DNA of 64,000 nt from Collimonas fungivorans Ter331 (lineage in GTDB: Bacteria > Pseudomonadota > Gammaproteobacteria > Burkholderiales > Burkholderiaceae_D): assembly GCF_000221045.1 (NCBI RefSeq), contig NC_015856.1, positions 2,350,986 through 2,414,985 of the forward strand, in the 5' to 3' direction. Each line of letters begins with the position of its first letter. Positions within the stretch are counted from its first letter, which is position 1. Of the stretch, positions 36,862-62,511 are shown piece by piece. The notes beneath the pieces are model-generated. The model ran no database searches. It was not told the origin of the DNA and worked only from the letters and a program-made list of their open reading frames with translations. A program made the position numbers and the translations under genes.

Positions 36862-38466
36862 TTGGCAACCACCTATCGTCACCCCGGCATTTACATCGAA
36901 GAATTGCCGAGCGCCCGCAACATCCAGGGCGCATCGACCTCCACCGCAGCCTTCGTCGGCGTCACCGAGTTCGGCCCGTTGGCGCAGCCGACCCTGATCA
37001 CCAGCTGGAACGCCTACCAGCGCCAGTTCGGCGGACTGGTCTGGTACGGCATGGTGTCGTGGGCAGTGTTCGAATTCTTCAACGAGGGCGGCACCGCCTG
37101 CTACGTGGTGCGCGCCGTCGACAGCAAAGGCAACGGCAAGGCGGCTACCGGATCGGCCAGCGGCATCAAGATGACCGCGGTCACGCCCGGCACCTGGGCC
37201 AATATCCTGAATTTTGCGGTCAGCAACGCCAGCGGCCCTGACAGCGCAGTTTCCCTGGTATTCAATCTGAGCGTGGTGGTCGATCCGGCGGCGCTCAAGG
37301 CCCTGCCTGCAGGGTCGTCCGGCGCCACCTTGCAAGCCTATGTGGCGCAGAACAACCTGCAGCCGACCGCGATCGGCGGCAAGGCTTATTACGTGCTCGA
37401 GTCGTTCAACGGCTACACCGCAGCCAGCATGGGCGCAGGCGGCGCACTGGCGAACGCGGTCAACACTACCTCGATGTTTGTGCGGGCGGAGACCAGCGGC
37501 ACCACGCGCCCGCCCAACAGCGGCAAGAGCGCGACGCCGCTGGCAGGGGGCGCAGCCGCCACCTGGGATTTCGAGAGCGCCACCACTACGCTCAGCACGG
37601 TGCAAGGCATCAGCCTGCTGGCCATCCCGGATACGGTCAACGCTGCCGACGCCAGCGGCAATCCAAGCCAGGCCTCGCAAGCGACCAGCATCAACGGCGG
37701 CCTACTATTCTGCGAAGGCGCACAGAACCTGTTCTATGTCAGCGATCCGCCGTTCGGCCTGGACGTCCAGGGGATCGGCAATTTCAAGTCGGGCAGCGCT
37801 ACATCGCCGGCGCTCAATTCCAGCTACGGCGCCATCTACTATCCCTGGGTATGGATCTACAACCCGATTGCCGGCGCCAATGTGCCGATGCCGCCGTCCG
37901 GTCCTTCGCTCGGCCGTTACGCCTATACCGACAACAATGTCGGTGTCTGGAAATCGCCGGCCGGGGTCAACGATGGCGCGCTGCTAAGCGTGGTGCAGCT
38001 GCAGACCCAGCTCACCGATTCGGACCAGGACATCCTGAATCCCAACGGCATCAATGCGGTCCGCAATTTCCTCAATTACGGCAACGTGATCTGGGGCGCC
38101 CGCACGCTGGCTGCGAACGGCAGTGAATGGACTTATGTCAGCGTCAGGCGCCTGTTCATCTATGTCGAGCAAAGCCTGAAGCAGAGCTTGCAATGGGTGG
38201 TGTTCGAACCCAACGACCAGCAGACCTGGGCCTCGGTGACGCGCGACATCAGTGCTTTCCTGACCACCTTGTGGCAGTCCGGCGGCCTGTTCGGCGCCAG
38301 TGCGGCGGAGGCGTTCTTCGTGACTTGCGACGCTTCGAACAATCCGCCCGAGACACGTTCGCTAGGGCAGCTGTATATCGATGTCGGCCTGGCTCCGGTG
38401 TTTCCTGCCGAGTTCGTCATCATCCGCATGACGCAGAAAATCGCTGGCCCGGATTCCGGTTCATAA
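36862..38466 (+). CDS. Contractile tail sheath protein
   Basis: This 534-residue sheath subunit begins MATTYRHPGIYIEELPSARN, the typical sheath N-terminus. The C-terminal domain carries GARTLAANGSEWTYVSVRRL and FVIIRMTQKI. It forms the contractile outer cylinder; contraction drives the tube into the target. The start is TTG at 36862, 6 bases after AAGGA. Only one sheath gene is present, whereas Afp and PVC have three. Confidence 0.95.
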   Translation: MATTYRHPGIYIEELPSARNIQGASTSTAAFVGVTEFGPLAQPTLITSWNAYQRQFGGLVWYGMVSWAVFEFFNEGGTACYVVRAVDSKGNGKAATGSASGIKMTAVTPGTWANILNFAVSNASGPDSAVSLVFNLSVVVDPAALKALPAGSSGATLQAYVAQNNLQPTAIGGKAYYVLESFNGYTAASMGAGGALANAVNTTSMFVRAETSGTTRPPNSGKSATPLAGGAAATWDFESATTTLSTVQGISLLAIPDTVNAADASGNPSQASQATSINGGLLFCEGAQNLFYVSDPPFGLDVQGIGNFKSGSATSPALNSSYGAIYYPWVWIYNPIAGANVPMPPSGPSLGRYAYTDNNVGVWKSPAGVNDGALLSVVQLQTQLTDSDQDILNPNGINAVRNFLNYGNVIWGARTLAANGSEWTYVSVRRLFIYVEQSLKQSLQWVVFEPNDQQTWASVTRDISAFLTTLWQSGGLFGASAAEAFFVTCDASNNPPETRSLGQLYIDVGLAPVFPAEFVIIRMTQKIAGPDSGS

Positions 38467-39520: not shown

Positions 39521-40009
39521 ATGGCTACCGGCCGCAATCCATCCGGCGGAATATCGCAGCGCAAATCCGGGCCGCCGGCGAACCCGTTCAAGTCGTACAA
39601 TTTTTATGTCGAGGTAGGCGGCATCGTGGTCGGCGGCTTCACCACGGTCGAGGGACTGCAGTCCAAAATCGAAGTCAAGAGCCTGCGCCAGGGTGGCGTC
39701 AACGATCTCGAATACAAGCTTGGCGGGCAAGTGACGTATGTCGACCTGGTGCTGAAGGCCGGCATCACCGCGCTGGATCCGATGTGGCTGTGGTACCAGG
39801 CCGCCTTGAACGGAAAGATCAAACGCCAGAACGGCTCGATCTACCTGCTGAACGACGAGGGCAATCCCACCGTCAGCTGGAATTTCTACAATGCCTGGCC
39901 GATCGAGTGGCAAGGGCCGAACCTGGACGCCGGCCAGAACCTGGTGGCCAGCCAGAGCTTTACGCTGGCGCACGAGGGGATCAAGAAAAACAGCGGGAGC
40001 GGCGGCTGA
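39521..40009 (+). CDS. Inner tube protein (gp19/Hcp-like), second copy, probable tube initiator
   Basis: This 162-residue gp19-family protein (NPFKSYNFYVEVGGIVVGGF, LQSKIEVKSLRQGGVNDLEY) has an extended basic N-terminus and a Gly/Ser tail. In PVC and Afp a divergent tube paralogue (Afp5) joins the tube to the baseplate. GGAG stands 6 bases before the ATG. Its TGA overlaps the ATG of the next gene. Confidence 0.9.
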   Translation: MATGRNPSGGISQRKSGPPANPFKSYNFYVEVGGIVVGGFTTVEGLQSKIEVKSLRQGGVNDLEYKLGGQVTYVDLVLKAGITALDPMWLWYQAALNGKIKRQNGSIYLLNDEGNPTVSWNFYNAWPIEWQGPNLDAGQNLVASQSFTLAHEGIKKNSGSGG

Positions 40010-50176: not shown

Positions 50177-51019
50177 ATGAGCGCGTTCATCCCACCCATT
50201 CCATCCGATATCGCGGTGCGTCTTAATTATCATGACGGCATGTTCCTTACTGCGCAAAACATGACGCTGGAACAGAATTATTTTTCCAACTGGATCAAGC
50301 TGCAGAACCAGTGCCTGTATACCCCAGGCGTGCTGAACGGTTTCGACGTCGTGCTGCAGAACAATACCCTGGTGGTGGCGCCCGGCGTCGGCTTTGACTC
50401 AAGCGGCGATTTCCTGGTGTTTCCCGGCATCAGCGGCAACATGGTGCCGGCGGCCACCAATCTGGGCGACAGCTACGGACTGTACGCGGTATATCCTCCC
50501 ACTCCCAACGTTTCCACCGACACCCTGGACCAGGCCGCCGTGTTGCAAAGCGCTTCGTTGACCTACCCGCCGAGCTATTCGATCATCCTCGCCACGGTTA
50601 CGATGGACAGCGCCAATCCCGGCATCATCAAAAGCATTGCCGACAGCCGGATACCGGTCACCAGCCGTTTGCCGGCTGTGCTGGGCAAGCTGGCGGTAAT
50701 CCAGTCGAGCCTGAAACAGGGGCTGGATGGTGCGCGCCACGGCAACGTCACGTTCGATACCCGCACGCTGCTGAAAGTCGGCGACCGGGTGTCGCAGCAA
50801 GTGTTTTACGTGGCCGGGCAGGGACCGGCTTTCAACGTGCCGCCCAGCGTCAACGCCACCGTGACCGGCTCCTTCCCATATGCGATCAGCGTCAGCAATG
50901 TCGGCACTTCGCAGTTCACCCTGGACCTGGTGGCAATAGAAACCCGCGCCACCAGCGAGCCGTCGGCGCAGGTGAACTGGCTGGCCTTGTCCAACTCTTC
51001 CACGCTTGAAAACGCCTGA
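50177..51019 (+). CDS. Baseplate/fibre-associated protein with H-type lectin-like C-terminus
   Basis: This is a 280-residue protein. The N-terminal 150 residues (VRLNYHDGMFLTAQNMTLEQ; GVLNGFDVVLQNNTLVVAPG) resemble phage-like baseplate adaptor proteins. The last 80 residues (VFYVAGQGPAFNVPPSVNAT ... ISVSNVGTSQFTLDLVAIET ... QVNWLAL) look like an H-type lectin domain, suggesting sugar binding at the target. It starts directly after the previous stop and precedes the fibre gene by 13 bp. Confidence 0.7.
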   Translation: MSAFIPPIPSDIAVRLNYHDGMFLTAQNMTLEQNYFSNWIKLQNQCLYTPGVLNGFDVVLQNNTLVVAPGVGFDSSGDFLVFPGISGNMVPAATNLGDSYGLYAVYPPTPNVSTDTLDQAAVLQSASLTYPPSYSIILATVTMDSANPGIIKSIADSRIPVTSRLPAVLGKLAVIQSSLKQGLDGARHGNVTFDTRTLLKVGDRVSQQVFYVAGQGPAFNVPPSVNATVTGSFPYAISVSNVGTSQFTLDLVAIETRATSEPSAQVNWLALSNSSTLENA

Positions 51020-51032
51020 CAGGAATCGCACC

Positions 51033-54000
51033 ATGAGCAGTTCATTGATTCAACGTCCAAATTATTTCGCCGGCGAAGCCCTGCTGACCGCCGATTTCGC
51101 TTGCGAGCAGCAGTACCACATGGATATCCAGAGTTTCAACAACCAAAGCCTGTATATCTGCGGCATCGCCACCGGACTTGAAGTGTTCTGGGACGCCGAG
51201 AGCAGCGCCAGCCAGGTCGAGGTCAGTCCGGGCATGGCGATCGACGGCCTGGGTCGCCAGATCATCCTGCTGCAGCCGCAGATAGTCAGGTTGGACAATG
51301 TGGTAGCGGGAGCGACCTATTTCCTCAGCATCAGCTACAACCAGGTGTATGCCGATTACAGCGACGAGACCGGCGTCGCCGGCTACAAGCGGATCGTGGA
51401 GCAGCCGCTGATCCAGTATGTGCGCAACCTGCAGCAGCCGGCCATGAACGTCCTGCTGGCCGTGATCAGCTTTACCACCCAGGGTGCCATCAATCAGCTG
51501 ACTTATCGCTCGGGCAATATCGAGCGGCGCTATGTCGGTTCAACCCTGGGCGCCTTGAATTTTGTCACCGAAGGTGCCGGCGTCCACCGCATCAACTTGC
51601 CGGATGCGCTCGCCGGTTTCCTAGGCAACGCGGACAGCGACGGTTATCCCAGCATCAGTGCAAAAAAGGAAAGCAGCGGCGACCAGGCTTACCTGGAGGT
51701 GGATGCGCCGCGCAGCCAGTTCATGGGATTGCTGACCACCCGCAATAATCTCGGCGTCGGCGCCGACCAGCCGCTGGCCAACCTGCAGGTCGACGCCATT
51801 ACCTTCAAGGGCCCTGGGGTATTGTCTTCAGACGGCTCACTGGTGACTTTATCGAAGACGCTGGCGCCGTATTTCCAGGTCGGCGACGTGCTGATCTCGG
51901 ATCCGCCGGTGATCACCATGAACAACGGCCAGACCAGCTTTGGCATAGCCCAGCGGCGCACTATCGTCAGCATTAACCCGGGCAGCCTGCAAGTGACGGT
52001 GGACACGGCATTCAATCCGGTCCTGCAAAGCATCAGCTACACCTATGTGCGTTCGACGCTGGCGCGCTTCGCCGTCAGCAGCGACAGCAGCCTTTTGCGC
52101 ATCAATATCGACGGCACGGTCGGCCTTGGCATGCAGGCCGCCACCAGCGCCGGCCTGGCCGCCAGCGGTCCGAATGCGCTGGTGATCACCGCCGACCGCA
52201 AGGTCGGCATCGCCTTGACCGACCGCAGCCCTGCGGCGGCGCTCGACGTCAACGGCAAGATCCAGAGCGACGACCTGAAAGTGCAGGGCCAGATCCAGAC
52301 CGGCTCGATGATAGCCAGCGGCGCCATCCAGGCCCAAAGTTTCGAAGGCAACGGCTCCAAGCTGCAAGGGTTGCCTATCCTTAGCTACTGGGTCCGAGAG
52401 ACCATCGGCACGCCGACCAGCAACCTGTATTACACCGACGGCAATGTCGGCATCCGCGACAAGAAACCGCTAGCCTCGCTCAGCGTCGGCGGCGGCCAGT
52501 CTTTCATCGGCAAGGGACACATCACTGCCATCAGCAACAATGTCTTGCAAGGTTATCAGACGGCGTTCCAGGATGAAATCACGGTCGGCGACACAATCAC
52601 CGTCGGCATGTTGATCGAGCAGGTCGGCATCATCGCGGAAATCCTCAGCGACACCCAGCTGCGGCTGCAGGAACAGCTGCCGCTTGCAGTGCTGAATTCA
52701 GCCTACAGCTACCAGGCGCCCGGCGCCGACAGGAAATCCGGGCAAGGGCAGATCAGCAGCGACGGCAGCATCGTCACCGGCCAGGCCAGCAATTTCAAGA
52801 GCACCACGGTTGCCGGCGGCAAAATCATCATCGGCCGTTTCGAGCCCAAGACCAGCATCAGCCAGAGCAGCGCCGTCGCTGCTGTCGCCAGCGCTACCGC
52901 GCTTACCCTGAAGACGGCGTTTGCGGTCGACGTCAGCGCCTCTCCATACAAATACCAATCGGGCGGCGGTCCGGTCCAGGACGGCGTAGGCACGATCACC
53001 ACCAAAGGCGTGCAAGTGACCGGCGACAAGACGGATTTCAGCGGATACAAGGAAGGCGATACCTTGATCATTCCGCCATCCTCGTCGCTGCCGCAGACCA
53101 TGTTCGTGCAGTCGGTCATCAGCCAGACCGAACTGACGCTGATTCTGCCGGACGGCAAGGGCAAGCTGACAGGAACCTTTCCGGCCGCGGTGTCGGCTTA
53201 TGTGGTGACGCCCTCGCTGCTGGCCTACATCGCCGCCAAGAACGACAACGGCGTGCTGCCGTCCGGCAGCCTGGACATTCCGCCGGCGATGATCGTCGCT
53301 ACCAACAACATGGTCGACACGCCCAACACCGTGGCCATCAATTGCCGCCCCGAGGAAATCCAGAGCCAGTACGCGCTGCAGGTCAACGGCAACGTCTATT
53401 TGGGCGGCAGCACCGTGGATATCAAGGACTTGCATGTGCAGACCCTTACCGCCAGCAAAAGCATCACGGTGGCAGGCGACGGCAGCGCCGACAAGCTGCT
53501 GGATGTGGGCGAAAGCGGTTCCTCGCTGCTGACTGTGAGCAAGACCAACGTTACGGTGGGCGCAAGCGTTGCGCCATACCAGCTCGAAACGGCCGGCAAC
53601 ATCCACGCCAGCGGCGATATCGTCAGCGCAAAGACAGTGCGCGGCGCCAGCCTGGAGGGAGCGGCGCTGAAGGCGGCCGGCACCAGGATCAACAGCGACG
53701 GCAGCGTGCAGATCATGGGCACCCGGGTGCCCTATGACCAGTCAGCCCTGACCGACGGCGGCACTTTCTTCGAGCAGGTGGCGAGCACCGACGGTTATGT
53801 CGTGGCGACGGTCGGCCAGCCGGCCTGGGCGGTCAATTACTGCGGCTGCTTGTCCGGCGCTACCAGCGACAGCAACGGCACCCAGACCAGCTTCATGTAT
53901 GCGACAGGACTTGCTTATCAATATGTCGTGCCGGAGGGTAAAAAGAAGGCGGCCGTATATTACATCCCGGTGCCGGGCTCTTTCACCATGCCGGTAAAAC

Positions 54001-54674
54001 AGGGCGAGACCTGGAGCCTGACTTTGACCTGGAATGTCGATTTTGGCGGCGCGCCGCAGGTCGAGTTCTACTGGGTGCCGCTGGGGCCGACGCCCAGCAG
54101 CCTGGCAGAAGTCGCGGAACCGGCCCCGGCCACGCTGGCCGGGGGCGGCATGGCGGCATCTTTGCGGCGCCTGCGTGACGACCTCGCAGCGGGCCGCATC
54201 GGCAGCAGCATACGCGCCACCGTGCAGGAAGCCATCCAGCACCGGGTCGACGACCTGGCCCAGGTGTTCGGCGATGCAACCCGCATGAGCAGCAAGCCGG
54301 AAGACCGGGAGCAATTCATCCGCGACCTGCAAAAGATCGTCTGCGGGCCGGGCGCAACGGCGCAGGCATCGATGCAGCCCGGTTTCGAACAAGATGTCCA
54401 GGCCTTGATCGACACCTTCGGCAGCGTCACCGCTCATGTTTTCAGCGAATCGCAGCACGGCCTGCTGGCTGCCGGAGTCAAAGCGCTGGTGCAGATCAAC
54501 GACAGCCCGGCCAACCGGCACGACCTGAGCCTGATCAAGAACAATATCAATCTGTTTCTCGACAATGTGCAGCAGGTGCTGCAGACAGAATTCGGCAGCA
54601 ACGAGCGGCGCTTGCTGACGCGGGCGCTGGTGCGCCTGGTCGGCGACGGATCGGGAGGCGCTGACGGCAGTTAG
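51033..54674 (+). CDS. Large tail fibre protein
   Basis: This is a 1213-residue protein. The N-terminus (QRPNYFAGEALLTADFACEQ) is related to its upstream neighbour and probably attaches to the baseplate. The middle has four related units, near residues 259, 492, 569 and 650, of the pattern G-x-G-x-I-S-x-D-G-x-x-V-T-G followed by GD-x-I. A stretch with PAAALDVNGKIQSDDLKVQG is typical of fibre shafts before a receptor part. Residues from about 898 to the end form a module repeated as a separate gene at 54746. The start at 51033 follows AGGAA; the frame also opens at 51006 without a ribosome site. Confidence 0.82.
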   Translation: MSSSLIQRPNYFAGEALLTADFACEQQYHMDIQSFNNQSLYICGIATGLEVFWDAESSASQVEVSPGMAIDGLGRQIILLQPQIVRLDNVVAGATYFLSISYNQVYADYSDETGVAGYKRIVEQPLIQYVRNLQQPAMNVLLAVISFTTQGAINQLTYRSGNIERRYVGSTLGALNFVTEGAGVHRINLPDALAGFLGNADSDGYPSISAKKESSGDQAYLEVDAPRSQFMGLLTTRNNLGVGADQPLANLQVDAITFKGPGVLSSDGSLVTLSKTLAPYFQVGDVLISDPPVITMNNGQTSFGIAQRRTIVSINPGSLQVTVDTAFNPVLQSISYTYVRSTLARFAVSSDSSLLRINIDGTVGLGMQAATSAGLAASGPNALVITADRKVGIALTDRSPAAALDVNGKIQSDDLKVQGQIQTGSMIASGAIQAQSFEGNGSKLQGLPILSYWVRETIGTPTSNLYYTDGNVGIRDKKPLASLSVGGGQSFIGKGHITAISNNVLQGYQTAFQDEITVGDTITVGMLIEQVGIIAEILSDTQLRLQEQLPLAVLNSAYSYQAPGADRKSGQGQISSDGSIVTGQASNFKSTTVAGGKIIIGRFEPKTSISQSSAVAAVASATALTLKTAFAVDVSASPYKYQSGGGPVQDGVGTITTKGVQVTGDKTDFSGYKEGDTLIIPPSSSLPQTMFVQSVISQTELTLILPDGKGKLTGTFPAAVSAYVVTPSLLAYIAAKNDNGVLPSGSLDIPPAMIVATNNMVDTPNTVAINCRPEEIQSQYALQVNGNVYLGGSTVDIKDLHVQTLTASKSITVAGDGSADKLLDVGESGSSLLTVSKTNVTVGASVAPYQLETAGNIHASGDIVSAKTVRGASLEGAALKAAGTRINSDGSVQIMGTRVPYDQSALTDGGTFFEQVASTDGYVVATVGQPAWAVNYCGCLSGATSDSNGTQTSFMYATGLAYQYVVPEGKKKAAVYYIPVPGSFTMPVKQGETWSLTLTWNVDFGGAPQVEFYWVPLGPTPSSLAEVAEPAPATLAGGGMAASLRRLRDDLAAGRIGSSIRATVQEAIQHRVDDLAQVFGDATRMSSKPEDREQFIRDLQKIVCGPGATAQASMQPGFEQDVQALIDTFGSVTAHVFSESQHGLLAAGVKALVQINDSPANRHDLSLIKNNINLFLDNVQQVLQTEFGSNERRLLTRALVRLVGDGSGGADGS

Positions 54675-54745
54675 GGCGGGGTGGCCGCCCGCAATCCGGT
54701 TTGACAGTCGCAATTCTTATCGATGTTCACCCATGAGGAATGATC

Positions 54746-55705
54746 ATGAATACCATTGTAAACAGTACTTTCGGAACGCGCACCGCTTACAACCAGTCCA
54801 ACCTGACCGACGGCAACTTCAGCCAGGTTGCCAGCAGCGACGGTTTTGTCATGGCGACGGTCGGCCAGCCGACCTTCAGCACCAACTATCTTGGCACGCT
54901 GGAAGGTTTCACCGTCGACAGCAGTGGCAGCAACACCAGTTTTGTCTACGCTACCGGACTGGCATACAGCTACAACGTGCCGAACGGGAAAAAGGGCGCG
55001 ACCACGATCCTGATTCCCATGCCCGGCTCGTTTACCATGCCGGTGCGGCGGGGCGAGACCTGGAATCTGCGGCTGACCTGGAATCCTGAAATCGGCGTGG
55101 CGCCGCAAGTGGAGTTTTATTGGATCCCCGACCTGAATACTGCGCAGGGGCAGCCGGGCGCGCCGGCGAGCCAGCAGGCCAGCATCATGAAGCAGGCCAT
55201 GAACACGCTGCGCGATGAATTGCAGTCCGGCAAGGTGCAAGGCAGCATGCTGCTGTCGGCCCAGCAGGCGATCGACAGCAGGGTGCACGACCTCGCACAT
55301 ATCCTTGGCGACAGCGTCAGCCACGGCAGCAGCGAACAGGATCGCCAGCAATTCGTCGGACGCTTGCAAAAGATCGTCTGCTCGGCGGCGCCGCAGGGAC
55401 AGAAAACCGACAATACCGTCGATCCGCAAGTCCTGCAGGAATTGATTGCCAGTTTCGGCAAGCTCAGCGGCCATACATTCAACACCCAGCAAAGCGGCCT
55501 GATCGAAGCCGGCGTGCGCGCGCTGGTGCAGATCAACGATAACGACGCCAACCGCCGCGACCTGTCGCTGATCAACCGCAACATCGGCCTGTTCATCGAC
55601 AATATGCAACAGGTGCTGGACAAGCAGTTCAGCAACAATGAGCGTCGCCTGCTGACAAGGGCGCTGGTGCGCATCGTCGGCGACGGCACCCGCGGCGACC
55701 TATGA
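54746..55705 (+). CDS. Stand-alone copy of the fibre C-terminal module
   Basis: This 319-residue protein matches the last 315 residues of the fibre almost end to end: a beta-rich part (YNQSNLTDGNFSQVASSDGF; GSFTMPVRRGETWNLRLTWN), then a helical part with AGVRALVQINDNDANRRDLS and FSNNERRLLTRALVRIVGDG. GAGGA stands 6 bases before the ATG at 54746. It may join the fibre as a subunit, act as an alternative tip, or serve as a chaperone. Function unknown. Confidence 0.75.
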   Translation: MNTIVNSTFGTRTAYNQSNLTDGNFSQVASSDGFVMATVGQPTFSTNYLGTLEGFTVDSSGSNTSFVYATGLAYSYNVPNGKKGATTILIPMPGSFTMPVRRGETWNLRLTWNPEIGVAPQVEFYWIPDLNTAQGQPGAPASQQASIMKQAMNTLRDELQSGKVQGSMLLSAQQAIDSRVHDLAHILGDSVSHGSSEQDRQQFVGRLQKIVCSAAPQGQKTDNTVDPQVLQELIASFGKLSGHTFNTQQSGLIEAGVRALVQINDNDANRRDLSLINRNIGLFIDNMQQVLDKQFSNNERRLLTRALVRIVGDGTRGDL

Positions 55706-55736: not shown

Positions 55737-56399
55737 GTGCTAGCCGCCGCCAGTCGCACCCGGTTGGCAACCTTCGACTTGCTGGATGAAGCCGGCTGCG
55801 AAGACTGGGTGCTGCGCACGCTGCTGCTGCGGCGCCACTGGCGCCCGCGGCACGCCGCGGCGCCGTTCTTTACGCTTGGCCTGGCGGCGTACCTGGATTG
55901 CGGTGCAGGAGGAGTCTATCATGACCTGGCGTTGCGCAGCCAGAACAACCGCATGCTGGAAAACCATTTCGGCCCGCTGCTGCAAGCGCTGGCGATGCTG
56001 CTGGGCGATTATTTCGGCGCGCCGGCCGGCATGACGGACGGCGCGGCATGGCCCGGTTTCCATATCTACCTGCCGCACCCGGCGTTCAGCCTGCCGGTCG
56101 CCAGCGTGCACCGCGACCTGCAGTACCGGGATGTCTTTCCCGGGCAGGCGTTCGCCGAGGACGACATGTTCAGCTTCACGCTGCCGCTCAGCACGCCCGA
56201 AGGCAGCGGGCTGAATATCTGGAGCGATGACGCGGCAGCCGCCGCTCCCGATTTCCATCCCTACCGCAGCGGACAGCTGGTGGTCCACAGCGGCCTGGCG
56301 ACACACCAGGCCGTGCTCAGGTGCGACGGCGATCTTGAACGCATCACGCTGCAAGGCCATGGTGTAAGGCTTGGGCAGCGCATCCTGCTGTACTGGTAA
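55737..56399 (+). CDS. Fe(II)/2-oxoglutarate oxygenase-like protein 1 (eCIS-encoded)
   Basis: This protein has 220 residues from a GTG start. The core resembles the double-stranded beta-helix of 2-oxoglutarate oxygenases: HRD at 125-127 as H-x-D, a distal histidine at 184 or 190 (HSGLATH), and Arg202 in ERITLQGHG as the co-substrate anchor. It shares the ITLQGHG end and overall layout with the next protein. It lies within the eCIS operon. Hydroxylation of a particle or effector protein is a guess; no target is known. Confidence 0.6.
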   Translation: MLAAASRTRLATFDLLDEAGCEDWVLRTLLLRRHWRPRHAAAPFFTLGLAAYLDCGAGGVYHDLALRSQNNRMLENHFGPLLQALAMLLGDYFGAPAGMTDGAAWPGFHIYLPHPAFSLPVASVHRDLQYRDVFPGQAFAEDDMFSFTLPLSTPEGSGLNIWSDDAAAAAPDFHPYRSGQLVVHSGLATHQAVLRCDGDLERITLQGHGVRLGQRILLYW

Positions 56400-56403
56400 G
56401 AGC

Positions 56404-57180
56404 ATGCCGACTACCGCCATCCATCCTGAATTCCATCTGCGCCTGTTCAGCCAGGCCGCGGCCGACGACATCGTCCAGCGCCTGCTCAACCTCGATGCTT
56501 TCTGGCTGCCGCGTCATCCGCAGCTGCCGTTTTATACATTAGGCGCGACCAATTACTACGACATCACCGGCAACCCGGCCAAGCCATACCTGCGCCTGGC
56601 GCGGCAATACAATCCGTTCTTGCTTGAAAATTTCAGCGACGTATATCGAGCCTTGCTGGCCGGCCTGCAAGAACAACTGGGGCAGCCCGTCGATTTCCTG
56701 GCGGACGCTGCGCTGCCGGGCTTCCATATTTTCGGCGGCCATGCCGATTTCACCGCCCGCGACGAACACGATGTCCTGCATGGCGAATGGTTCCAGCGGC
56801 GCGACGGCCATGGTTTCCCCGGCAATCCGATCCATGTCGATACGGCGCACCTGGCGCTCGGGCTGCCAGCCGCGGTGGCTGGCGTGCCGTTGCCCACCTT
56901 GTCGTTTACCCTGGCGCTATGTTTGCCCGAGGAGGGCGCCGGCATGAAGATCTGGCCGCTGCGCCTGGCCAACATCGCCGATCTTGGCGGCCAGCAGCAG
57001 ATGCAATTGCTGCAAGACTGCGCCAGCCGCCTGGTTGCCTACCAGGCCGGCGGTTTGTTCGTCCATTCTGGCGACTATTATCATCAGGCGCGCGGCCTGC
57101 CGGTGCAGGACGGGCAATACCGCATCACGCTGCAAGGCCACGGCGCCTGGCTGGATGGCCAGTGGCGTCTGTTCTGGTAA
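56404..57180 (+). CDS. Fe(II)/2-oxoglutarate oxygenase-like protein 2 (eCIS-encoded)
   Basis: This 258-residue paralogue of the preceding protein has H-x-D at 144-146 (PIHVDTAH), a distal histidine at 221 or 227 (VHSGDYYH) and Arg240 in RITLQGHG. It starts 5 bases after the previous stop, so the two are probably made together. The repeated architecture suggests a heterodimer or two related substrates. Confidence 0.6.
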   Translation: MPTTAIHPEFHLRLFSQAAADDIVQRLLNLDAFWLPRHPQLPFYTLGATNYYDITGNPAKPYLRLARQYNPFLLENFSDVYRALLAGLQEQLGQPVDFLADAALPGFHIFGGHADFTARDEHDVLHGEWFQRRDGHGFPGNPIHVDTAHLALGLPAAVAGVPLPTLSFTLALCLPEEGAGMKIWPLRLANIADLGGQQQMQLLQDCASRLVAYQAGGLFVHSGDYYHQARGLPVQDGQYRITLQGHGAWLDGQWRLFW

Positions 57181-57206
57181 CGCCTGCCAACCCGAGGAAT
57201 GACGCC

Positions 57207-57716
57207 ATGTTTTTCGCCCCAAGCCAATTTGCCTTTACCCAGCTGCTGAGCCGCCACTGGCAAGCGATCCTGGCGGAATGCCTGGCGTTGCCCGGACAGG
57301 AGTTTGACGCCTGGCCGGAAAGGCAGCTGTACAATCACGGCTGGGATGTATACGGGCTGTATGTCGGCCAGCAGCCGCTGCTGGAAAACTGCATCTTCTG
57401 TCCGCATACTGCGGAACTGCTGCAGCAGGTTCCCGGGTTGTCGCATGCCGGCTTTTCTCGGCTAGCCGCCGGTGCCGAAATTTCGCCGCACGTCGGCTAC
57501 AGCGACCAGGTGCTGCGGCTGCATCTCGGTTTGCGCGCCGGCGAGGATTGCGGCATCCGCGTCGGCGCGCAGGTGCGGCGCTGGATTCCGGGAGAATGCC
57601 TGGTTTTCGACGACACCGTCGAACATGAAGCCTGGAACCGCGGCAGTTCGGAAAGGCTGGTGCTGCTGGTGGATTTCACCAAGCCAGAGGGAGCGCGGGC
57701 CGATGAACCCAGCTGA
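57207..57716 (+). CDS. Aspartyl/asparaginyl beta-hydroxylase-like protein (eCIS-encoded)
   Basis: This 169-residue protein shows the AspH pattern: EISPHVGYSDQVLRLHLGLR with His95 and Gly97 (the family's H-x-G variant), IPGECLVFDDTVEHEAWNRG with His140, and Arg150 in SERLVLLVDF. AspH enzymes hydroxylate Asp or Asn side chains. GAGGA lies 8 bases before the ATG. It overlaps the AAA+ ATPase gene by 14 bp, which ties it to the injection-system operon. Confidence 0.75.
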   Translation: MFFAPSQFAFTQLLSRHWQAILAECLALPGQEFDAWPERQLYNHGWDVYGLYVGQQPLLENCIFCPHTAELLQQVPGLSHAGFSRLAAGAEISPHVGYSDQVLRLHLGLRAGEDCGIRVGAQVRRWIPGECLVFDDTVEHEAWNRGSSERLVLLVDFTKPEGARADEPS

Positions 57717-59937
57717 AACCGCCGCTTACGCCGATAACCAGGAATTGCTGCATGAGCTGCGCCAGATTGGCGACGGCATGATTGAGCGCGCCTTGCTGCT
57801 GCGCCAGCTGGCGGACGGAGTGGCACTTGACCAGGCGGAAACGGATGACCGGCTGGCGGCGCTGTACCGCCAGGCCAGCCGCCGGCAAGCTCCGTCCGGC
57901 CAGTTGCAGCAACAGCTGGCGCAGCTGGGATCGGCCCTGCAGCGCCGCTGGGACCGGCTGGTCCAGCGCAGCGCGGCAAGCATCCGCTCCCAGGTGTTTT
58001 TGCCCTGGGTACACCTGGCGCTGCTGTTCCAGCTCAGCCAGCGCGACCAGGAATTATTGCTGTGCGCCTTCCTGGCTGAACTGGACCAGCGCTATCACGC
58101 CATCTTGCAGGCAGTGAGCAGCGATCCGGACGCCGCCGTCGACGCTGGCCAGGGTTTCACATCCCTGGCCAGCGCCGCAGTCATGCTGGGCGGCACCCTT
58201 GCGGATCGCATCGACATGCAGCAGAGCCTGATGAGTAATGCCGCCTTGCGTCAGTGGGACCTGGTCGAACTGGCCGGCGGCAGCCGCCTTGGCGCGCTGA
58301 GCGGCGGTTATCGCTTGAACGCCGCGATCGCCTCCTACCTGCTGGCGCGCGCTGCGCCGCAGCTGCGCCTGGAACAGCCGCTGCACGATATCGATGGCCG
58401 GCTGGAACTGGAGGAACACCTGGTGGAAGAAGCGGTGAAGCAACAGCTTTCCAGTTTCATTGCCCGCACCGCCAAGGAGGATGGCGGGCATTCCAGCTTC
58501 GTACTGCATCTGCAAGGTCCCGACCTGTCCCTGCAGGAAAGCCTGTGCGCCGCCAGTTTCAGGCAAATCGGCATGCGCTGCGTGCGGCTGGACGGCAAAG
58601 CTGTCTGGCAGTCTTATCTCAACGGCCAGAAAAACCGGGCCGCGCTGGCGACGCGCTTGCGCTTGCTGTGCCGCGATGCGTTGTTGTGCAACCGGGTGCT
58701 GGTGCTGGTCCATTGCCAGTGGCTGAGCGCGCAGGATGGCGCCGACGATTTGCTGGACGAGGTCTGCAACACCTTGTTCGACAGCCAACGCTATCTGGCC
58801 GCGCTGAACGGTCCGGCCCGGCGCCTGAGCGACCTGGCGCACCAGTACGGCGGCCATCCGGTGATCCCGGCGCTGATCAAGAGCAAAACCCCCGATAGCC
58901 AGCTGCGGCTGCGTATCTGGCAGCGTCATCTGCCGGCCTCGGGATTTCACCCGACAGAGCCGGAGCTGGCGCAGCTGGTGAACAGCTATCTGTTTACGGA
59001 ACAGCAGACCTTGATGGCACTGAAAGAGGCCGCCAGCCGCCGCCTGCTCAATCCCGATGCCGAGAGCGACCGGGAACTGCTGCTCGACGCCTGTCGCGAG
59101 CAAAGCCATCGCGAGCAGCTGAGCGTCGCGCAGGAGGTAAAAAGCGCCTATCGCTTCGACGACATCATCTTGCCTGCCAAAACCAAGGGCTGGCTGCAAG
59201 AGGTTTTGCAATATGCGCAAAACCGTCACCAGGTAATAGAGAACTGGGGTTTTGATCAAAAAAACCAGAACAGCAAGAATCTCTGTGTGCTGTTTTACGG
59301 TCCGTCCGGCACCGGCAAGACCATGGCCGCCTCGATCATTGCCAATGAACTCAACCTTGGCCTCTACAAGATAGACCTCGCCAACATCGTCAGCAAATAC
59401 ATAGGCGAAACCGAGAAGCACCTGGCGCAGCTGTTCGACCAGGCTGAAGCGATGAATATCGTATTGTTTTTCGATGAAGCGGAAAGCCTGTTTTCCAAGC
59501 GTACCGAAACCAAGGATGCGCACGACCGCTACGCCAACCTGCAGACCGGCTACCTGCTGCAGCGCATAGAGACCTATCCCGGCATCGTGATTCTTTCGAC
59601 CAACCTGCTGAAAAACATGGACAAGGCGTTTACGCGACGTTTCAAGTTCATGATCGAATACCCGTTCCCGGGCGCCGAACAACGCCTGCAGTTATGGCGC
59701 AACGCGTTTCCGGCGGCAACCCCGCTCGACGCCGGCCTGGACTTGCCTTTGCTGGCGGAAAAAGCCGCGCTCAGCGGCGGCAACATCAACAACATCGCGG
59801 TCAGCGCCGCGTTCCTGGCAGCCGCGCAGCAACAGGCGGTGACGCAGGCACACCTGCTGCAAGCCACAGAGCGGGAATATCACAAGCTGGGCAAGGTATT
59901 CAGCTTGAACGATTTCAGCTGGGGCGACGATGACTAG
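57703..59937 (+). CDS. AAA+ ATPase (Afp15/Pvc15-like)
   Basis: This is a 744-residue protein. A helical N-terminal half (about 1-480) contains a degenerate nucleotide-binding-like region. The C-terminal AAA+ domain has Walker A GPSGTGKT (533-540), Walker B VLFFDEAE (587-594), and an arginine finger region (FTRRFKFMIEYPFP). This ATPase is the hallmark of eCIS loci and is thought to help particle assembly or effector loading. The start at 57703 lies inside the end of the hydroxylase gene. Confidence 0.93.
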   Translation: MNPAETAAYADNQELLHELRQIGDGMIERALLLRQLADGVALDQAETDDRLAALYRQASRRQAPSGQLQQQLAQLGSALQRRWDRLVQRSAASIRSQVFLPWVHLALLFQLSQRDQELLLCAFLAELDQRYHAILQAVSSDPDAAVDAGQGFTSLASAAVMLGGTLADRIDMQQSLMSNAALRQWDLVELAGGSRLGALSGGYRLNAAIASYLLARAAPQLRLEQPLHDIDGRLELEEHLVEEAVKQQLSSFIARTAKEDGGHSSFVLHLQGPDLSLQESLCAASFRQIGMRCVRLDGKAVWQSYLNGQKNRAALATRLRLLCRDALLCNRVLVLVHCQWLSAQDGADDLLDEVCNTLFDSQRYLAALNGPARRLSDLAHQYGGHPVIPALIKSKTPDSQLRLRIWQRHLPASGFHPTEPELAQLVNSYLFTEQQTLMALKEAASRRLLNPDAESDRELLLDACREQSHREQLSVAQEVKSAYRFDDIILPAKTKGWLQEVLQYAQNRHQVIENWGFDQKNQNSKNLCVLFYGPSGTGKTMAASIIANELNLGLYKIDLANIVSKYIGETEKHLAQLFDQAEAMNIVLFFDEAESLFSKRTETKDAHDRYANLQTGYLLQRIETYPGIVILSTNLLKNMDKAFTRRFKFMIEYPFPGAEQRLQLWRNAFPAATPLDAGLDLPLLAEKAALSGGNINNIAVSAAFLAAAQQQAVTQAHLLQATEREYHKLGKVFSLNDFSWGDDD

Positions 59938-59964: not shown

Positions 59965-62511
59965 ATGCGCAAGATGAATGTCCTGGCAGCGCCGCCGGCC
60001 AGCCATGACAATATGCCGGCGCCTGCCGGACCGGCCGCGGACCAAGGCGGCGATGTCACCGCGATGGGCAGCTATCACTATGCCGCCACCGGCGCGCTGC
60101 CGGCCAGCCTGCAGGCAGGGATCGCCGCATTGTCGGGGATCAGCCTGGATCATGTGCAGGTCCACTACAGTTCGTCCATGCCGGCCCAGTTGAAGGCGCA
60201 CGCCTATGCGCGAGGCAGCGACATTCACCTGGCGCCGGGACAGGAGCGGCGCCTGCCGCACGAAGCCTGGCACCTGGTGCAGCAGGCGCAAGGCCGGGTG
60301 GCGGCCAGTGCGCAAACCAGGGGAGTGGCGCTCAACGACGACCGCCGGCTGGAACAGGAAGCCGATGTCATGGGCGCACGCGCCATGCGCCACGGCCCGG
60401 CGGCGCCGGAGCCGGAGCCGGATGAGTACGGCGCCGTGCCAGCCGCCGCGCGGCCGGTGACCCAGCTTTACCGGATCGAACGCGAACCCGACACACAGCA
60501 GGTTTATTCGGTCTCCGACGATAATTCCATGGTGACCGGGATGGCAACGCCCAATCACGAATTCTATGTGAATAACGCAACCCGGATCGGCGCCATGAAC
60601 AATGCCATCGCTACCTCGCCGCTGATGTTTTACGCCGCAGGCACGGCCAGCCTGTTCGGGCGCGACTATTTCCGGGTTGGCTTGAGTTTTGACACCGCCA
60701 GGGTACGCGGCGACCATCGGGACGATTTGCAGGCGCAGTACCGGAACCAGGTGCTGCCCGAGATACGCTCGTTCCGCGAAGGGCGCCGCGCAGGAAAAAC
60801 CGCCGAAATAGACGCCGCCACGGTGGTATCCGAGGGACGGATCAAACCGGCTTTGATCAATCCTGCACTGTCGGCCTCGGTACGCAAGCTTGAGCTGTTC
60901 AAGAAACTCATCCTCAGCCAGCTGGCGCTGGCCTCTTACCGCGACGATGAAACCGCGGCGATAGCCGATGCCGGCCGCATCGTCAGTACGCTGGAGAGCG
61001 CGCTGTATTCCGCCGACATTACCCGGGGCGCCATCGCAGCGCGGCTGGAAGAGCTGGCTCCTTATTTCAGGGAGGAAGACAATCCGGCGCGATTCCCCCT
61101 CGCTCCGATTTTGAGCGCCACCTTGCTCGAATTGCGGGCTGCCTTCGTGACGCTGGCGGCAGCATTACCGGAAGACCTGCCGGTCGACCTGATGTCGTTT
61201 CATAACGCCAGCTTCCAGGCGCGCCAGGTCGAAGCCGTCGACGGCCCGGACAACGTGCTCTTGTATCGCGCCTGCGACGTCACTACCTCCACCTTGCTCG
61301 GCAACAAGATCACAGATGAGAATGCGCAGCGGCTCAAGACCTATGTCGCAGGTTCCGGCGGCGCTTTCCATTACGCTACCAAGATACTGCAATCGGGCGG
61401 CGACTGGGTCACCCTGGAAGGTTTCGCCGCCAGCGACCGCGAACGCGGCATCATCGGCATCGAGGACGATGATTCGGCAAAAAACATCGACGATACCTGG
61501 CAATACATCATGTACGGTGCGCTGGCCGGCGGCGGCTCGCCGCTGTCGGACGAAGACCGCTATTTTGCGCTGTACACAAAACTGCGCTACTACCTGAAAG
61601 GCATCACGGCGCCAGGCGTCTTCGGGCCGACGCAACGCGCCAAGCTGATACCCGAACCGATTGATATCGCACGGCTGAAGGCGCTGTTTCCGGCTCCGGT
61701 TGCAACGGGTATCGGCGGCTTTTTTTCGCGGCTGATTGCGGACACGCCCCAGGAAAAGGCGCAAGCGTTGTTTGCGCAGTTGCAGGTGACCGGGTTGCTG
61801 GACAGGCACGGAAGCGTAGCCGACCGCGAGACGCTGACGGCGCAACAAGTGCGCGAGCGGTTGCCGAGCCTGCCTGAAGGTATTGCGGTGAAGGTTTTTC
61901 GTATCCTGCGTGAGTCGCTCAAGTCGCCGCATATCCAGATCGGCTTGAGCAGCGATCTTGCCAACGCCATAGCCTGGCGCGCCTACCTTGGCGCAAACGA
62001 CGACGCGCAACAGGCGCTGCTGGAGCAGCAATCCGACGCCATCATGGAGCAGGGCATTGATCCGCGGGCGCAGTCGGGAGCCATGTGGAGCGACCTGGCG
62101 CAGACCGTTGGCAGCCTGCCGCCAAGGCCGGTTCCTACAGTTGCCCTGGCGCCCACGCTCGCAACAGAACCTGTGACGCCGCTGGTTGAGCCGGAGTCGC
62201 CGGTGCTGGGAGGGCAGGCCGAAACATCGCTGGCCGTCAGCACGCCGGTGAAAGATGAAGGCAAGCCAAAAGGCAAGAAGGCGTCCACACGGGATGAACT
62301 GATTACGATGGGCTTGAACGAACTGGACCGCCTGCGCGATCTGTGGCGCAGCCGGCAGCCACAGCCGGCATTGGGCAGTCCGCCGGGTTATGCTGACTGG
62401 AGCGGCGCGATCCGGTCGATTCAGCTAGCTCCGGAAGACATGCCTATCGGCGCTATCCACGAAGACATGATGCAGTGGCTGAGAAATGCCGAGGAAAGAT
62501 GGGGCGTATGA
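59965..62511 (+). CDS. DUF4157 eCIS effector candidate with unknown C-terminal domains
   Basis: This is an 848-residue protein. The DUF4157 domain is seen at about 45-115 (LPASLQAGIAALSGISLDHV; HLAPGQERRLPHEAWHLVQQ) with the HExxH motif His99-Glu100-His103. DUF4157 marks eCIS cargo and may act as a protease-like targeting domain. Residues 180-720 are unassigned; a segment near 430-520 (NVLLYRACDVTTSTLLGNKI; GGDWVTLEGFAASDRERGII) recalls other DUF4157 effectors. A Pro/Val-rich linker precedes a helical tail. It is the last gene of the cluster. Confidence 0.8.
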   Translation: MRKMNVLAAPPASHDNMPAPAGPAADQGGDVTAMGSYHYAATGALPASLQAGIAALSGISLDHVQVHYSSSMPAQLKAHAYARGSDIHLAPGQERRLPHEAWHLVQQAQGRVAASAQTRGVALNDDRRLEQEADVMGARAMRHGPAAPEPEPDEYGAVPAAARPVTQLYRIEREPDTQQVYSVSDDNSMVTGMATPNHEFYVNNATRIGAMNNAIATSPLMFYAAGTASLFGRDYFRVGLSFDTARVRGDHRDDLQAQYRNQVLPEIRSFREGRRAGKTAEIDAATVVSEGRIKPALINPALSASVRKLELFKKLILSQLALASYRDDETAAIADAGRIVSTLESALYSADITRGAIAARLEELAPYFREEDNPARFPLAPILSATLLELRAAFVTLAAALPEDLPVDLMSFHNASFQARQVEAVDGPDNVLLYRACDVTTSTLLGNKITDENAQRLKTYVAGSGGAFHYATKILQSGGDWVTLEGFAASDRERGIIGIEDDDSAKNIDDTWQYIMYGALAGGGSPLSDEDRYFALYTKLRYYLKGITAPGVFGPTQRAKLIPEPIDIARLKALFPAPVATGIGGFFSRLIADTPQEKAQALFAQLQVTGLLDRHGSVADRETLTAQQVRERLPSLPEGIAVKVFRILRESLKSPHIQIGLSSDLANAIAWRAYLGANDDAQQALLEQQSDAIMEQGIDPRAQSGAMWSDLAQTVGSLPPRPVPTVALAPTLATEPVTPLVEPESPVLGGQAETSLAVSTPVKDEGKPKGKKASTRDELITMGLNELDRLRDLWRSRQPQPALGSPPGYADWSGAIRSIQLAPEDMPIGAIHEDMMQWLRNAEERWGV

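Follow-up and report, generated by a model that had tools for sequence, protein, structure and literature searches.

Operons for extracellular contractile injection systems (eCIS) may contain cargo genes, and the cores of the PVC, Afp and MAC particles are not known to have such a set of Fe(II)/2-oxoglutarate (2OG) oxygenase genes. The present analysis concerns three consecutive oxygenase-like genes, referred to as A, B and C, in an eCIS operon of Collimonas fungivorans Ter331. They lie in a stretch of 64,000 nucleotides, called the window (NC_015856.1, 2,350,986 to 2,414,985, forward strand), to which the gene positions refer; the source genome is a single contig of 5.19 Mb, and other loci and genomes carry labels beginning with L and G. 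One operon comprises the sheath, a gp19-type tube, CIS_tube, a Phage_GPD hub, a base_V spike, gp25, Baseplate_J and the AAA+ ATPase, and a cargo gene with an eCIS_core leader stands directly 3' of the ATPase gene. Recognition of these families agrees with the eCIS assignment made in the first-pass annotation of this DNA. The order and coordinates of the trio between the fibre genes and the ATPase gene are confirmed, as is its tight spacing: gaps of 31 bp from the second fibre gene to A, 4 bp from A to B and 26 bp from B to C, and an overlap of 14 bp between the end of C and the start of the ATPase gene.

We propose, with a probability of about 0.45, that A, B and C form an oxygenase cassette of one eCIS subtype, most likely hydroxylating the fibre polypeptides of its own particle. 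The first-pass annotation had suggested hydroxylation of fibres, of the effector or of target proteins, or loading of the enzymes as cargo. The predicted folds and the conserved sites support the enzyme class well, and the trio recurs in related eCIS loci; the fibre as target is a reasoned guess, and the effector and cargo versions of the idea have fared less well. Among the matches listed from the open-licence literature no title or abstract reports oxygenases in an eCIS operon, and the word oxygenase has no occurrence in the main text of two eCIS papers (PMC8213781, PMC11297309).

Conservation of the trio and properties of its enzymes

The order A-B-C with eCIS genes is kept in 8/8 loci. They are the window, four further genomes of the genus (G143, and G164, G186 and G196, counted as the loci L027, L028 and L026, the contig of G196 stopping within the ATPase gene), Trinickia fusca (L029), a Burkholderiales metagenome-assembled genome (L030) and G447. 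The two loci farthest from the window share with it 52-64% identity in A, B and C (69% in one short piece of A) and 50-57% in the ATPase. The ratios of non-synonymous to synonymous substitution rates (dN/dS) against L015 and L016 are 0.17 and 0.20 for A, 0.13 and 0.15 for B, 0.10 and 0.15 for C, and 0.11 and 0.18 for the ATPase. Chance insertion, which absence of the trio from related loci would have indicated, is ruled out because the trio is syntenic in eight loci and under purifying selection (dN/dS 0.10-0.20). The locus is conserved well beyond what the letters of one genome could reveal.

Within the genus the ATPase is found at 67% identity or more in 5/15 genomes and the trio in those same five; B was not found in the eight of the other ten that were searched. 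At the order level the ATPase is matched at 1e-40 in 51/399 genomes, matches to the A/B profile and to the second fibre gene are confined to the same two genomes, and matches to the fibre gene occur only in genomes also carrying the trio. No match to A, B or C at 1e-4 or 1e-3 was obtained in eight ATPase loci that are more distant (L055, the 3.7-kb contig L056, L087, L088, L089, L092, L093 and L096; four further fetched loci were left unscanned). Sheath or baseplate genes accompany the ATPase in some of these distant loci, and in G577 (L087) a match of 38% over most of the ATPase goes with a 325-residue CIS13-like protein, without the long fibre. A 26-row profile matched only the window's own genome among 398 phylum-level genomes, and searches of 72,556 plasmid records with A and B, C not being searched, returned no match.

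A and B share 33% identity over 248 columns (E-value 2e-23), in keeping with the first-pass annotation, which described two paralogues with H-x-D...H...R features. A has no match in Pfam or NCBIfam, B has none in NCBIfam and one sub-threshold, unrelated match in Pfam, and their family is of unknown function in PHROGs. The AlphaFold models are confident (pLDDT 91.9 for A, 88.4 for B) and contain the double-stranded beta-helix, or jelly-roll, fold that was to be expected of such oxygenases. In structure comparison WelO5 structures top both lists and the next fold (SnoN or SadA) lies 5 to 6 Z units lower. The HxD...H iron triad and the distal Arg for 2OG are present in 32/32 aligned homologues, one of them a fragment, the split A of G447 being left out of the alignment. 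With jelly-roll folds predicted for A and B and with conserved metal and 2OG sites, all three proteins have the appearance of functional Fe(II)/2OG oxygenases. Among the viral proteins of BFVD, A is structurally closest to one of Pithovirus LCPAC102 (A0A481Z343), with a TM of 0.81 normalised to the query length and 22% identity. A profile search with A2 against PDB sequences gave one match, which is irrelevant.

The AspH-like nature of C is borne out by a score of 143.8 bits against PF05118 (cut-off 22.6), the match spanning residues 16-160 of 169. Seven positions, namely the six listed in Table 1 and R104, are all kept in 21/22 aligned homologues; only PHM2_185 of phage P-HM2, a distant member of PF05118, departs from this. 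Identification of C as a lipid hydroxylase was rejected as its scores for LpxO (72.5 bits, cut-off 500) and OlsC (89.9 bits, cut-off 450) are far under the cut-offs. The genome of the window encodes a second PF05118 gene elsewhere. C-related PF05118 genes are also seen in L124 and L127, near genes reading like modules of non-ribosomal peptide synthetases (NRPS) with condensation-type sequence.

A and C outside eCIS operons

Scanning the GTDB contig collection for A1 with two peptide patterns gave at least 19 loci. Eleven freshwater loci (L033-L043) encode A followed by C, without B, convergent with an export-type cluster. This cluster has a GNAT gene, a gene for an 86-residue protein and a SecA-like gene in 11/11, and M50-like, HlyD and outer-membrane-factor genes in nine, eight and six of the 11, where the contig reaches; the Pfam names are taken from L036. 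The operon in each of the six extended loci is headed by a gene for a repeat protein that is cut by the contig end, with a minimum length of 822 to 2131 residues, and the two of these proteins that were scanned have no Pfam match. A SapC-like gene was called in 5/6 of the extended loci, the gene caller having taken an opposite-strand open reading frame (ORF) in L107. DUF4347 proteins were considered as the export substrate and rejected, with matches in 3/8 genomes, two of the six freshwater ones, and none on an A+C contig. Nothing in the eCIS operon was recognised as belonging to the SecA/HlyD-type cluster.

A search (tblastn) with A, B not being searched, of 50,697 phage records identified six, which are three Prochlorococcus phages each deposited twice. 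Viral contigs gave 16 pattern matches, none of them a relative. The neighbourhood was read in P-HM2, with the neighbours in MED4-213 listed only and P-HM1 not looked at. In P-HM2 (L102 10988-14642) a PF05118 gene lies about 2 kb upstream of the A homologue and matches C at 33% over 97 residues; a gene annotated as a virion structural protein is among those between the two. A second PF05118 gene of this phage (L102 24300-24788), about 10 kb on, is without several of the conserved residues.

With midpoint rooting, the eCIS A proteins form one clade (support 98/93) that includes the fragment from L044, and the eCIS B proteins form another (100/100). The eCIS A clade groups with the freshwater A proteins (98/95) and not with B, as would be expected if the two are paralogues of long standing. 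Long branches lead to the phage and Paractinoplanes proteins, and the position of these in the tree is uncertain.

It is possible, though we hold it to be rather unlikely, that A with C is a module that matures long extracellular fibrous proteins in general, serving eCIS (with B added), a SecA/HlyD-type exporter of giant surface proteins and a tailed phage. If this were true, side-chain hydroxylation would be an unrecorded step in the making of surface fibres in bacteria and phages.

Candidate substrates

Hydroxylation of the fibres is the simplest reading because a long extracellular or virion polypeptide is common to the three main contexts and the human relative of C hydroxylates Asp/Asn in proteins. 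In this proposal, of which we infer the catalysis, the cytosolic site, the protein nature of the substrate and the choice of the fibre, the enzymes would act in the cytosol before or during particle assembly. The targets would be side chains of the long fibre protein, of the second fibre-module protein and possibly of the 280-residue protein, with Asp/Asn residues as the targets of C and other sites as those of A and B, and the modification may tune folding, stability or receptor binding of the fibres. If true, it would add a new control layer over target recognition by injection particles, would be relevant to expressing particles in hosts without the modifying enzymes and would provide the first substrate class for the A/B family.

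Several observations weigh against this proposal. A search for a residue motif common to the proposed substrates gave none. The long fibre of the window is enriched in Asp-Gly (14 observed against 6.8 expected, 0.004), two controls are mildly so as well (baseplate 0.030, ATPase 0.034), and none of the six giant repeat proteins is, so that a shared Asp-Gly motif as substrate signature is unsupported; Asp-Gly-Asp is mildly over-represented in 3/6 giant proteins (0.034, 0.020, 0.004) but does not occur in the eCIS fibres. As PF05118 genes are common, C by itself is no specific marker of eCIS. At 1e-8 C finds matches in 72/145 genomes of the family, nearly all at 30-44% identity, and the closest match outside the trio loci (48%, in G115) has as neighbours genes that, read from the sequence, are NRPS-like. 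The specific signal is therefore the pairing of A with C and the association of all three genes with eCIS of the window type. In G447 (L054 7495-8150) the A homologue is split over two frames, the matches to B and C being in one frame each, and A may be dispensable there or the split may be a sequencing error. Fibre, ATPase and trio may also co-occur merely as markers of one eCIS subclade. In two further loci with A-like genes the available sequence contains no eCIS and no export cluster; in L031 a GNAT gene adjoins A, and the A of L044 is a fragment where its contig begins. The nearest solved folds, considered below, point away from the fibres also.

The trio might instead modify the cargo or its leader and so license loading or activity. 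The cargo genes directly follow the ATPase, and the N-terminus of the window cargo, and that part alone, matches the gene after the ATPase in five other trio loci. The body of this gene, however, differs among loci where the trio is constant, and Trinickia has kept the trio with no match to the window cargo, and has a gene with a Peptidase_C80 domain (L029 14365-15798) two genes after the ATPase. Two leader regions 60-64% identical to those of the window cargo occur in the trio-less G130 (L055), a distant second eCIS type in the genus. The cargo is a weaker candidate because the trio stays the same where the gene following the ATPase changes, and because a similar leader is found in a locus of the genus without the trio. 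Counter to this, Collimonas sp. OK412 encodes a gene 70% identical to the window cargo over residues 9-802 (L027 18375-20774), further downstream, after another gene sharing the leader only. We consider modification of the cargo improbable on balance. Loading of the oxygenases into the particle and their injection, so that they hydroxylate proteins of the target cell, would suit small proteins within an operon of a kind that may carry cargo, yet none of the three has an eCIS_core match in Pfam, all are encoded upstream of the ATPase among structural genes, and A and C are also found without eCIS. This reading is very unlikely.

A further alternative is tailoring of a small molecule or short peptide, with an incidental or regulatory position in the eCIS operon. 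Both WelO5 and SadA, the closest folds with solved structures, act on small molecules, and C-like genes occur beside NRPS-like genes. In Paractinoplanes (L032 6656-13787) two A-like genes stand with an ATP-grasp gene (103.7 bits against TIGR04187, far under the cut-off of 350), a Lys-Asp-Gly-rich ORF, a third 2OG oxygenase and an MFS gene in what looks like a ribosomal-peptide pathway. Against it, the stretch from the fibre genes to the cargo gene contains no biosynthetic gene, the order with eCIS genes is kept in every trio locus, and A with C has a second strict link, to the export cluster; we give it little weight. An action on another particle component (baseplate, sheath or ATPase) or on a chaperone would fit the overlap with the ATPase gene and the operon position. 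It is about as improbable, as more distant eCIS-type loci lack the trio though they have an ATPase and, some of them, sheath or baseplate genes and, as described above, the fibre gene is matched only where the trio is found.

Gene organisation and comparison with known systems

The genes discussed are listed in Table 1. The long fibre scores 37.6 bits against CIS13, under the NCBIfam cut-off of 370. The GTG start of A is supported because Met aligns there in close relatives, and the mechanically called ORF of B begins at a TTG upstream of the chosen ATG.

Table 1. Genes of the eCIS operon in the window
Feature	Position	Strand	Basis
eCIS sheath protein (PF17482/PF04984)	36862..38466	+	family match
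inner tube protein, T4 gp19 family, CIS5/CIS1-like	39521..40009	+	family match
baseplate protein, Baseplate_J, TIGR02243	44924..48019	+	family match
280-residue protein, no Pfam match; found in other trio loci covering that place	50177..51019	+	
long fibre protein, 1213 residues, proposed substrate	51033..54674	+	CIS13-like N-terminus, weak tail-fibre PHROG matches, C-terminal fibre module
second fibre-module protein, 321 residues, proposed substrate	54740..55705	+	about 55% identity to end of long fibre
oxygenase A, 220 residues, GTG start	55737..56399	+	predicted WelO5 fold; H125-x-D127...H190...R202
oxygenase B, 258 residues, ATG start	56404..57180	+	paralogue of A; H144-x-D146...H227...R240
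oxygenase C, 169 residues, ATG start	57207..57716	+	single-domain AspH family PF05118; H95/H140 iron, S84/H106/R150 2OG, D136
eCIS AAA+ ATPase with winged-helix domain	57703..59937	+	ATG at 57703
cargo/effector with eCIS_core leader (PF13699)	59965..62511	+	family match

In the halogenase WelO5, Gly166 stands at the place of the missing Asp ligand, which is the halide site, whereas the Asp of HxD is kept in all the aligned homologues of A and B. The title of PDB entry 5iqu names a G166D variant of WelO5. These should hydroxylate or otherwise oxygenate because the Asp is intact where the WelO5 halogenase has Gly, and a halogenase function is disfavoured. The Fe/2OG halogenases WelO5 and Wi-WelO15 (PDB 5iqv, 5t22, 6gem) resemble the predicted A and B in overall fold, but the identity is only 13-17%. 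The WelO5 family PF22814 is absent among the Pfam matches of A or B at an E-value of 1, and a phage homologue of A scores 16.5 bits against it, under the cut-off of 27.

The oxygenase domain of human AspH aligns with residues 3-161 of C (phmmer E-value 1e-17). In AspH, as given in PMC13168262, H679 and H725 bind iron, S668, H690 and R735 bind 2OG and D721 is in the second sphere; their counterparts in C are the residues of Table 1, D136 being the equivalent of D721. Human AspH has a TPR domain and a substrate in EGF domains, whereas C has no TPR match, its 169 residues leaving no room for one, and nothing EGF-like was seen for it.

The cluster facing A and C in the freshwater loci is similar in make-up (SecA-like, HlyD, M50-like) to the secondary SecA_DEAD / type I secretion module described by Kamneva et al. 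2015 (PMC4452313), from the main text of which the words hydroxylase and aspartyl are absent. Among phages, the cyanophage family phrog_24927 matches A and B, with about 28% identity to A, and phrog_25472 matches C. Both are without assigned function, and P-HM2 encodes one of each.
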